26,684 nucleotides of DNA from a virus. The stretch lies in IMG/VR virus record IMGVR_UViG_3300048589_000722, positions 1 through 26,684 of that record; one strand, written 5' to 3'. The notes below the pieces were generated by a model. That model was not told where the DNA came from, ran no database searches, and was given only the letters and a program-made list of their open reading frames with translations. Below, in pieces: positions 589-3,952 of the stretch (positions within the stretch are counted from its first letter, which is position 1; each line of letters starts with the position of its first letter). A program made the translations under genes and the position numbers.

Positions 589-609
589 GGGGAGTTACTG
601 AACTCCATG
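589..609 (+). promoter_or_regulatory. Hairpin sequestering the primase ribosome binding site
   Basis: GGAGTT (591-596) and AACTCC (601-606) form a perfect 6-bp stem with a 4-base ACTG loop, and the ATG of the primase/helicase follows at 607. The only Shine-Dalgarno-like sequence, GGGGAG at 589-594, lies in the left arm, so the folded RNA would hide it. The same 16 bases could be a dyad protein-binding site. Either would allow control of primase translation or transcription. Confidence 0.45.
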
Positions 610-3015
610 GCAGCCAACTACCAGGACGTCCTTGACCAGCTGCACGCCGCCGGGCTGATCGTCACCTCGCTCGAGATCGGCGGCATGAAGCGCTGCCGCG
701 TCGAGGGCGATCGCGAGAAGCGCGGTTGGTACTCGCTGCACGAGCTGCAGCTGCCGAGCGGCGACGTGCTCATCGTCGGCAGCTACGGCATCTGGCGCGG
801 CAACGACCACCAGGCCACCAAGATCGAGCTGCGCAAGGTCGAGCTCTCGGTCGACCAGCGCGCCGCGCTCAAGCGCAGCTTGGCCGAAGACCGCAAGCGC
901 GCTGAAGAGGTCCGCGCCACCGCGCATCGCCGCGCGGCCGCCCGCGCCAGCGCGGCCTGGACAAAGCTGCTGCCCGAGGGCGAATCCGACTACCTGGCGC
1001 GCAAGAGCGTCGGCGCCTACGGCCTGAAGTTCACCAAGAACGGATCCGCGGTGCTGCCGATGCTGGACACCGCCGGCCGGATCCACGGCCTGCAGTTCCT
1101 GCGCACGCCGGCGGCTGCCGAGAAGGCGCGTCGACCCGCCAAGGAATTCTGGCCTGCGGGCCTGGCCAAGAAGGGCCACTTCCACCTGATCGGGCCGACG
1201 CCCACCTGGTTGATCCTGGTCGCGGAGGGCTACGCCACCGCCGCCTCGCTGCACATGGCCACCGGCTATCCGGTGGCCGTCGCGTTCGATGCCGGCAACC
1301 TGATGGCGGTGAGCGAGGCATTGCGCTGGCGGTACAAACACGCCCGCATCCTGATCTGCGCCGACGACGACACGCTGGGCAAATGCCACCACCGTGAACA
1401 AGGTGGCGATCCGTGCCGCGCCCGGATCTCGCTCTCGCTGCACCCGAAAGACTGCCCGACGTGCGGGCACCCGCACCGGTACGAGAACGCCGGCGTCGCC
1501 GGCGCCAGCGCCGCGGCCCTTGCGGTCAACGGCGCCTGGGTCGTGCCCTTGTTCGCGGATCCGGCGGCGCGATCGCAGGCGTGGATCGACGGCAAGGGCA
1601 AGGCGACCGACTTCAACGACCTGCACCTGGGCGAAGGCCTGCACGTGGTGCGCGTCCAGGTCGAAGCCCGCCTCACGGCATTGGCCTGGAACCCCCGGGT
1701 TTCCAGCGCGCCTACATCACCACCCAGCGGGGCGGGGGACGGCCGACTGTCGCCGTTCCAGACGGTCGAGCAGCTGATCGCCCGCTTCCCGCTGGTGTAC
1801 GCGCACAGCAGCGCGGTGTTCGATCGCGAAGAGCACGTGCTGATGTCGGTCAGCGACATGCGCGATGCGTGCGTGAACAAGTACATCCACCGAGCCTGGC
1901 AGGAATCGCCGGCGCGACAGATCATGCGCATACGCGAAGTGGGCTTCGACCCCACCGGGCGTGACGGCGAGATCACCTGCAACCTCTACGGGGGCTGGCC
2001 CACTGAGCCGAAGGCGGGCTGCTGTGACCGGCTGCTCGAGCTACTGCGCATCATGTGCAGCCTCGATCGCAACCCTGAGGCCTTGTACCGCTGGGTGCTC
2101 AACTGGATCGCCTATCCGATCCAGCACCCGGGCGCGAAGATGAAGTCGACGCTGGTCGTGCACGGTCCCCAAGGCACCGGCAAGAACCTGCTGTTCGAAA
2201 CCGTGATGGCGATCTATGGCCAGTACGGCGACGTGCTCGACCAGTCCGCCGTCGAAGACAAGTTCAACGACTGGGCCAGCCGCAAGCTCTTCATGATCGC
2301 CGACGAAGTGGTGGCCAGGTCGGACGTCTACCACATCAAGAACAAGCTCAAGTCGCTGATCACCGGCGATCGGATCCGCATCAACCCGAAGAACCTGCCG
2401 GCCCACTGGGAGCGCAACCACGTCAACCTGGTGTTCCTGAGCAACGAGGCGATGCCTGTGGTGCTCGAGGAAGACGATCGGCGGCACTGCGTGATCTGGA
2501 CCCCGGAGAAGAAGTCGGCCGAGTTCTATCACGCGGTGCTCGAGGAGATCCGCGCCGGCGGCGCTGCGGCGCTGCACGACTACCTCCTGCACCTGGACCT
2601 GGGTGACTTCGGGCCGGGCACGCTCCCGCCCATCACCGACGCGAAGAGCCTGCTGATCGCGCTGGGTCTGGACAGCCCGATCCGATTCCACGACGACCTG
2701 GTAACCGGCGACATCCCTGGCCTCGAGGCAACGCCTGGCCTCTCTTCGGACTGGTACCGGGCCTATGTGATCTGGTGCGGCCGCCATGGCTATCGGCCGG
2801 CCCCGCAGTCGAAGTTCGTCGTGGCCCTGACCCGGCAGCGCGACGTGGCCCAGGCGCGCAAACGCTACCAGCCCGGCAGCAAGGTGCTGGGCCCCCACAG
2901 TTTCCTGCTCCTCGGGCAGCAGGCGCCGCCGGAGGGCAAGTCGGAGCTGTTCTGGCTAGGCGGGTGCCATGCCGACTTCCGCGAAATGCTCGAAGCCTTC
3001 AAGGAGGACAAGTGA
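607..3015 (+). CDS. Phage DNA primase/helicase (Toprim plus D5/DUF5906-like ATPase)
   Basis: An 802-residue protein that probably primes and unwinds phage DNA. After an N-terminal region and a basic helical stretch (about 75-120), the Toprim fold shows the VAEG motif at 205-208 (catalytic Glu 207) and the acidic ADDD motif at 252-255. Immediately after this a Cys/His-rich insert (about 260-290, including C260, H261, H262, C283, C286, H290) resembles a zinc ribbon. The Toprim part ends near the DFNDL motif. The C-terminal helicase has Walker A GPQGTGKN starting at residue 520 (Lys 526) and a Walker B with Asp 566/Glu 567, as in D5-like viral helicases. The ATG at 607 follows a hairpin-embedded ribosome site. 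No separate replication initiator is visible here, so origin recognition may be elsewhere. Confidence 0.85.
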   Translation: MAANYQDVLDQLHAAGLIVTSLEIGGMKRCRVEGDREKRGWYSLHELQLPSGDVLIVGSYGIWRGNDHQATKIELRKVELSVDQRAALKRSLAEDRKRAEEVRATAHRRAAARASAAWTKLLPEGESDYLARKSVGAYGLKFTKNGSAVLPMLDTAGRIHGLQFLRTPAAAEKARRPAKEFWPAGLAKKGHFHLIGPTPTWLILVAEGYATAASLHMATGYPVAVAFDAGNLMAVSEALRWRYKHARILICADDDTLGKCHHREQGGDPCRARISLSLHPKDCPTCGHPHRYENAGVAGASAAALAVNGAWVVPLFADPAARSQAWIDGKGKATDFNDLHLGEGLHVVRVQVEARLTALAWNPRVSSAPTSPPSGAGDGRLSPFQTVEQLIARFPLVYAHSSAVFDREEHVLMSVSDMRDACVNKYIHRAWQESPARQIMRIREVGFDPTGRDGEITCNLYGGWPTEPKAGCCDRLLELLRIMCSLDRNPEALYRWVLNWIAYPIQHPGAKMKSTLVVHGPQGTGKNLLFETVMAIYGQYGDVLDQSAVEDKFNDWASRKLFMIADEVVARSDVYHIKNKLKSLITGDRIRINPKNLPAHWERNHVNLVFLSNEAMPVVLEEDDRRHCVIWTPEKKSAEFYHAVLEEIRAGGAAALHDYLLHLDLGDFGPGTLPPITDAKSLLIALGLDSPIRFHDDLVTGDIPGLEATPGLSSDWYRAYVIWCGRHGYRPAPQSKFVVALTRQRDVAQARKRYQPGSKVLGPHSFLLLGQQAPPEGKSELFWLGGCHADFREMLEAFKEDK

Positions 3016-3091
3016 TGCCCGTCGCTGTGCGGGACGTGCGGAGGCTGTGCCGGGTCCCGTGCGGGGCTGAAACCCGCGACAGGGAAGGCTT

Positions 3092-3203
3092 GTGCGGGGT
3101 GTGCGGGGTCCGTCCTAACGTGCGCGTACACATGAAGCGCGTCATTCCCCGTCACATTGAAACGGGAATCACGCGCACGTACCTACCCCCGCACACCCCG
3201 CAC
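3092..3203. repeat. 112-bp interrupted inverted repeat (large dyad)
   Basis: Three nested, collinear arms share a centre near 3147. A perfect 17-base arm GTGCGGGGTGTGCGGGG (3092-3108) pairs with 3187-3203. A perfect 10-base arm ACGTGCGCGT (3118-3127) pairs with 3171-3180. The inner arm ATTCCCCGT (3144-3152) pairs with ACGGGAAT (3162-3169) with one bulged base. As RNA this would be a long interrupted hairpin; as DNA, a cruciform or a symmetric array of protein sites. Confidence 0.8.
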
Positions 3204-3213
3204 GCCCCGCACA

Positions 3214-3278
3214 ACGCAGGCGGGGCGCGGGTGTCCTGCGTGTGGGGGTCTGTGCGGGGCACGATGCACCCCGCACAG
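3214..3278. repeat. Two further hairpins upstream of the terminase genes
   Basis: ACGCAGG (3214-3220) pairs with CCTGCGT (3235-3241). CTGTGCGGGG (3250-3259) pairs perfectly with CCCCGCACAG (3269-3278) over a 9-base loop. The second hairpin is built from one direct and one inverted copy of the octamer. Neither is followed by a T-run, so they do not look like standard terminators. Confidence 0.6.
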
Positions 3279-3349
3279 GCCTGCTCGCGCGGGCGCGCCA
3301 CTTCTCACTCCCCGTCGCTACGAAAAAAGGGAAGAGGAGGCCTGACTCA

Positions 3350-3952
3350 ATGACGGCGCCCGAAACTGGCACGGCGACCTTCAAGGCCTTCGCTCGGATC
3401 CTGGGCGAGCGGTCGCCCAGCTACGTCACCCAGCTCAAGGAACAGGGGCGCCTGGTCCTCACCGACGACGGGAAGCGGGTGCGGGTCAAGGAATCCCTGG
3501 CGTTGATCCGCGAGACGGCCGATCCCTCGAAGGCCGGCGTCGCGGCACGTCACGCTGCCCAGCGCGACATCGCGCCGGAGCCGGGGGAAGGGGAGGGGGG
3601 CGACGACGGCGAGGGCCTGGACGCGCCGCTGGCCGCCCAGGACGGCCACGCCAGCCGCCGCAGCCGCGCCCTGGCCGACAAGGCCGAGTGGGATGCCAAG
3701 GCGGCCGAGCGCGACTACCTGGTGTCCATGAAGCAGCTGCTCAACGCCGACCAGGTGGCGGCGGCGGTGGCGGCGGCGGTGAGCGCCCTGCGCGGCCGGC
3801 TCGAGACGCTGCCGTATGACCTGGCGCCGCAGCTGGCGCCGCTCGCCGATGAAGGCCAGATCCGCACGCTGCTCTCCGACGAAGTCGAAGCGGCCCTGGG
3901 CGAGTGCGCCCGGCAGCTGACGGCGCTGGCCCGCGCCGAGGCGGCGGCATGA
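3350..3952 (+). CDS. Terminase small subunit (Nu1-like)
   Basis: A 200-residue protein directly upstream of the large terminase. The N-terminus (about residues 8-50) reads as a helix-turn-helix of the Nu1 type: a helix, then a recognition-like segment (SPSYVTQLKEQG), then a Lys/Arg-rich wing, which in this family binds the packaging site. A charged linker rich in Gly, Glu and Asp (about 78-90) leads to a helical C-terminal half expected to contact the large subunit. The frame is open further upstream, but ATG 3350 is preferred because a strong GAGGAGG lies at 3334-3340 and the upstream part is octamer-repeat DNA. The stop overlaps the next start (ATGA). Lambda Nu1 is 181 residues. Confidence 0.75.
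   Translation: MTAPETGTATFKAFARILGERSPSYVTQLKEQGRLVLTDDGKRVRVKESLALIRETADPSKAGVAARHAAQRDIAPEPGEGEGGDDGEGLDAPLAAQDGHASRRSRALADKAEWDAKAAERDYLVSMKQLLNADQVAAAVAAAVSALRGRLETLPYDLAPQLAPLADEGQIRTLLSDEVEAALGECARQLTALARAEAAA

Follow-up and report, generated by a model that had tools for sequence, protein, structure and literature searches.

The element at about positions 3026-3277 of the viral DNA analysed here is most probably a replication origin that is bound by the phage-encoded primase-helicase, with six subunits on each half. We assign this reading, for which the evidence is comparative as a whole, a probability of about 0.82. The window, i.e. the whole stretch of DNA analysed, is a viral contig of 26.7 kb (26,684 nucleotides), in which Pfam and PHROGs matches define the gene order primase-helicase, a gap of about 335 bp, terminase small subunit (TerS), GpA-type TerL, and portal. 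The primase-helicase (607-3015, plus strand; PHROG 2249), the candidate initiator, is composed of a Toprim part and a DUF5906/SF3 helicase part, the latter of which matches the sequence of PDB entries 6k9c and 6k9e (‘Primase’); a search of solved structures reached the helicase core only. TerS (3350-3952, plus strand; PHROG 57) is the neighbour on the other side and lies outside the element. With TerS, TerL, and portal genes of its own, the window differs from PICI satellites, which have no virion genes of their own, and Stenotrophomonas phage S1, a relative of the window phage, is a complete phage.

The array in the window consists of iterons of about 9 bp with the core TGTGCGG. Six of them, located on the plus strand, face inward from the left: L1 (TGTGCGGGA, 3026-3034), L2 (CGTGCGGAG, 3035-3043), L3 (TGTGCCGGG, 3046-3054, with one core mismatch), and L4 (CGTGCGGGG, 3058-3066), which occupy the grid positions 74, 65, 54, and 42 when counted from the centre outward, followed by L5 (3091-3099) and L6 (3100-3108), both of which read TGTGCGGGG. 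A centre of 78 bp (3109-3186), which is variable between phages and represents a possible melting region, separates them from the right half, in which four iterons on the minus strand face back, namely R1 (3187-3195), R3 (3205-3213), and R6 (3269-3277), each reading CCCCGCACA on the plus strand, and R2 (3196-3204; CCCCGCACG on the plus strand). The right half is partly degenerate: R1 to R3 and R6 are kept, R4 and R5 are lost, and in the region where they have degenerated in the window’s subgroup an inverted, misoriented extra copy (TGTGCGGGG, 3251-3259, plus strand) is found. This degeneracy in the window itself counts against the origin model. In the same subgroup, the misoriented copy forms a strong local hairpin with 3269-3277 (region 3248-3268). 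Between the array and TerS (3278-3349), the relatives from the Xanthomonadaceae have in common a (GC)n tract with a T-run behind it and then, ahead of the TerS start, a stretch rich in purines; this last stretch may pair with upstream pyrimidines and thereby hide the ribosome-binding site.

The original prediction had described a 112-bp nested dyad at 3092-3203. This dyad was confirmed, but it makes up only the visible portion of a larger element, as further copies of the repeat are located outside the interval at 3026, 3035, 3046, and 3058 (forward), at 3205 and 3269 (reverse), and at 3251 (forward). Both the 17-bp perfect arm (3092-3108/3187-3203, centre 3147.5), the outer half of which corresponds to L5, and the 10-bp perfect arm (3118-3127/3171-3180, centre 3149) were recovered. 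The third arm is also present (ATTCCC-CGT at 3144-3152 with ACGGGAAT at 3162-3169), but its centre lies at about 3157, so that a single centre near 3147 shared by all three arms had to be given up, and the outer arm is made of two tandem nonamers TGTGCGGGG with a period of 9 rather than of two tandem octamers. A perfect inverted repeat of at least 17 bp was obtained in 7 of 1000 dinucleotide shuffles of the region 3016-3349, while none of the 1000 contained a single 7-mer in nine exact copies (both strands counted) as the 334 nt do, the maximum being 7.

Relatives were collected by primase-based scans, which gave 80 loci from IMG/VR and 51 from GTDB genomes in addition to Stenotrophomonas phage S1; a nucleotide search of the phage collection gave no match. 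The geometry was fitted locus by locus, and after removal of duplicates 97 well-resolved arrays remained. In nearly all relatives, the stretch behind the primase gene is built to this design, but the repeat itself is a different one. Six forward sites on the left and six reverse sites on the right are present in the 97 well-resolved loci, wrong-orientation copies being nearly absent, and thus two iteron sets (6+6 sites) of element-specific sequence surround a central region as in PICI origins. A strict scan for such an array in 20 random resamples of the window detected none. Depending on the locus, the iteron core is TGTGCGG, TGTGCAG, TGTGAGG, TGTCGRS, TGCAACG, TATACGG, or yet another one; besides TGTGCGG and TGTGAGG, the differing arrays include the core TGTATACGG. 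The core differs between phages, and the copies within one phage agree with each other, all of them changing together. This combination of agreement within and difference between phages is the behaviour of iterons subject to concerted change.

The spacing of the sites is equally regular. In the commonest layout, the distances are 9, 12, 12, 32, and 9 on the left of the centre and 9, 9, 43, 12, and 9 on its right, and the sites fall on a grid with the positions 0, 9, 41, 53, 65, 74, and 83 (left) and -9, 0, 9, 52, 64, and 73 (right). Among periods from 6 to 16 bp, this grid is fitted best by one of 10.5-10.6 bp, with P values of 0.007 (left) and 0.024 (right); the helical repeat of B-DNA is 10.5 bp. 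On the left, the long spacer mostly measures either 30-33 or 43-45 bp, and on the right either 29-32 or 42-43 bp, the two sizes being one helical turn apart. A helically phased grid with one-turn spacer variants is the mark of a protein-DNA assembly.

Within the loci, the array is associated with the primase gene. The left array begins 0-61 bp past the primase stop codon in 93 loci, i.e. downstream of the presumed initiator gene, and in 24 loci it is located 0-31 bp past this stop although TerS follows 235-2941 bp further on. When loci of at least 7 kb that had been recruited via TerL or TerS were subjected to the strict scan, which misses degenerate arrays (30 primase loci failed it, several of them truncated contigs), arrays were detected in 19 of the 30 loci whose primase match reaches the C-terminal domain, in none of the 35 loci whose primase match lacks this domain, and in none of the 9 loci without primase. 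Many of the 35 array-less loci share a Toprim part of about 31% identity. Among the loci obtained with TerS as query (L185-L258), about 55 have a similar TerS and the approximately 31% identical Toprim part, without a matching C-terminal domain or an array of this geometry; these loci may use another origin type.

Presence of the array is accompanied by covariation in sequence. With overall divergence removed, iteron distance covaries with primase residues ~741-795 (partial r 0.35; maximum of 500 label permutations 0.26), the permutation figures overstating independence because the loci share phylogeny, for which reason the set was thinned to 52-57 non-redundant loci where possible. Covariation of iteron distance with TerS, as expected for a packaging site, was not found (-0.13). 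In a sliding profile, the highest value was obtained for residues 751-790 (0.41), and residue R751 is present in 46 of 46 non-redundant loci with a GTGC core and lost in 9 of the 11 others. A second peak at residues 256-295 (0.36; window ~1372-1491) coincides with a zinc-ribbon-like Cys segment beside the Toprim part, which is present or absent between phages and covaries with the iterons as strongly as the C-terminal domain does, and the covariation signal is therefore not unique to the C-terminus. The C-terminal winged-helix-like domain (residues ~710-800; 2734-3006, plus strand) is, on account of the covariation and of its AlphaFold2 model, the candidate iteron reader. The model (mean pLDDT 90) has the order helix-helix-two-strand-helix and is a predicted winged helix whose first wing strand contains R751; in a fold search it gave weak matches (best Z 5.6), mostly to winged helices, including Orc1/Cdc6, RFX, and AsfvPrimPol. 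Synteny, presence/absence, and covariation all point to the primase as the protein that reads the iterons, and of the functions offered by the original prediction a replication origin is well supported by this linkage and covariation.

In the model derived from these data, the primase-helicase would use its C-terminal winged-helix-like domain to bind directly to the iterons. The six inward-facing iterons on each side would lie on one face of the helix, and each half could seat one hexameric SF3 ring. The two helicase rings would then melt the variable centre, and two replication forks would start, i.e. initiation would be bidirectional. Against this model, a switch of GC skew at the array was not seen in phage S1, in which the skew rises steadily across the record, and in the window its minimum is located elsewhere.

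Several other functions were considered for the array. A transcription control region, at which the primase or another regulator would bind to an array of operators or to a late promoter, is highly unlikely: its location between replication and head genes would be suitable, and origins and operators can coincide, but neither a promoter of the sigma-70 type, the type covered by the search, nor a terminator-like site is present in the gap, and the specificity of the iterons follows the primase.

A structured regulatory RNA transcribed between the primase gene and TerS, which had originally been proposed as one of the options, has a similarly slight chance of being correct. On both strands, the fold of the 334-nt stretch surpasses that of every one of 100 shuffled sequences (z -5.0 and -5.3), and its arms are complementary within each phage. 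However, a z of about -5 is expected of any set of inverted repeats, and the complementarity of the outer arms results from identical iterons in inverted order, which is the sole reason why the outer arm persists across phages. No Rfam family was recognised, the two chance miRNA matches being far below threshold. In the arms of the centre, locus-specific compensation was absent in 52 non-redundant loci (own partner versus the partner of other phages, z -0.06), and thus the inner arms vary without the compensatory, stem-keeping changes of a structured RNA, an outcome which the original prediction itself had named as evidence against its dyad; the outer arms cannot separate RNA from iterons. Deviating iterons match copies of their own arm (mean z 0.15) and of the opposite arm (mean z -0.11) equally often, and the spacing fits B-DNA phasing with one-turn variants. 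Co-deviation of left and right sites was also considered as a sign of RNA pairing and was dropped, since a few left-right pairs, L4-R4 (z 4.5) among them, lie above the null, but the same holds for the same-arm pairs R4-R5 (4.5) and L3-L4 (3.6), and the deviation rates of the sites are unequal. Tracts in which purines and pyrimidines alternate are over-represented in the centre (mean z 3.1) and give rise to near-palindromic stems in individual phages such as the 10-bp arm of the window. An AT-rich melting centre of the PICI type was sought in 92 loci and not found, which counts against the origin model, the mean AT content being 0.34 in the centre versus 0.35 in the arms; in the window itself the values are 0.44 and 0.25.

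Still less probable is a packaging (cos or pac) site, at which TerS would bind the repeats and mark the start of packaging. cosB and pac sites often hold repeats, and TerS is the direct neighbour of the array in 69 loci as well as in the window. Against this assignment, which was likewise among those originally suggested, the array follows the primase and not TerS: it keeps to the primase gene when TerS is 0.2-2.9 kb away (24 loci), it is absent from the TerL/TerS loci without the primase C-terminal domain, and its iterons do not covary with TerS. A description of the packaged ends of phage S1 was not found in the open-access literature.

The gap had been regarded as non-coding, but it is spanned by an open frame on the plus strand (3015-3353), which extends from the primase stop (TGATG, 3013-3017) to the TerS start (ATGA) and is homologous to gp2 of phage S1 (L004 2454-2804). 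That this annotated ORF encodes a small protein, the repeats being its codons, is the least probable of all explanations. In its favour, 84 of 97 loci have this frame open, its start overlaps the primase stop in 89 of 97, and in most near loci its end coincides with the TerS start or lies no more than 16 nt from it. Against it, the dN/dS of 0.77 is similar in the other frames and contrasts with 0.10 in the primase, GC is flat over the codon positions, spacings of 31-33 and 43-45 bp put the repeats out of frame, and iterons with an unchanged core run on along the opposite strand.

Of the 52 non-redundant loci, 42 have no stop codon within the array in the frame that overlaps the primase stop, whereas shuffling of the linker and centre bases around intact iterons leads one to expect 12; the corresponding numbers for the other two frames are 8 and 16. 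The overlapping frame thus stays open yet is not conserved as a protein, and in relatives with TerS about 1 kb away it mostly runs well beyond the array. The simplest reading is a selection for ribosome passage or translational coupling without a selected peptide, which accounts for the annotation of gp2 in phage S1. We tentatively propose, at somewhat less than even odds, that the origin is a translated one, with a selected open frame from the primase stop to the start of the next gene, in which ribosomes would cross the 12-site array and be coupled to the downstream gene while the amino acids are unselected. Open-frame coupling through an origin was not found described in the open-access literature. 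In some loci (L074, L075, L078-L080, L098, L100-L102, L110, L111, L113, and L130) a small gene is present between array and TerS, whose product (xxRCTEENxxEFxxxVxxWPELxxLVxxLxxxxLFPGLRxxxITLTG) is encoded in the open frame of the array.

As a replication origin, the array resembles several known systems. The C-terminal domain of SaPI Rep recognises an iteron origin directly downstream of its own gene, apparently as two hexamers, and that of SCCmec Cch2 binds intergenic repeats directly after the helicase gene (PMC7581432). As in the pri-rep-ori arrangement of SaPI/PICI, the array described here is located directly 3' of the initiator gene and has two element-specific iteron sets flanking a centre, and the role of the initiator C-terminal domain in reading the iterons, established there, is proposed here from covariation. 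Unlike in SaPI/PICI, the primase is of the Toprim (DnaG) type and fused to the SF3 helicase, the layout is a fixed, inverted, and helically phased one of 6+6 sites, and an open frame crosses the array; furthermore, the centre is not AT-rich as in PICI origins, and the array occurs in phages with head, tail, and terminase genes of their own. In our view, the array functions in the manner of a PICI origin and represents a novel variant rather than a PICI origin itself, because its genome type, the type of its primase, its strictly inverted 6+6 layout, and its non-AT-rich centre set it apart. The putative origin at SCCmec cch2 has three iterons only, in direct repeat, and a different primase. In phage P4, the alpha primase-helicase binds ori and crr, and short iterons are thus read by a Toprim-type primase-SF3 helicase fusion; P4 is a satellite, and its ori and crr are separate loci. 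SV40 large T antigen and papillomavirus E1 are SF3 helicases that assemble as double hexamers on inverted sets of sites. In these eukaryotic viruses, the origin-binding domain is N-terminal, and there are four core sites versus six per half in the array. Origin recognition by these two proteins has been noted (PMC7581432). In the crenarchaeal plasmid pRN1, an essential sequence of 166 bp follows downstream of the primase-helicase replication gene (PMC4234260), and the likeness of this archaeal plasmid is one of origin position.

If the origin reading is correct, it would give a recognisable origin to many temperate phages of Xanthomonadaceae, Comamonadaceae, and Methylococcaceae and would connect this origin with a specific domain and residue (R751) of the initiator. 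The pri-rep-ori arrangement, which has been described as unique to satellite islands, would extend to helper-independent phages. With the fixed 6+6 geometry, a simple stoichiometry, one SF3 hexamer per half-origin, could be tested directly, and the wealth of natural iteron variants would represent a ready-made specificity code. If true, a translated origin combined with the strict, phased 6+6 layout would be a type of phage origin that has not been described before.
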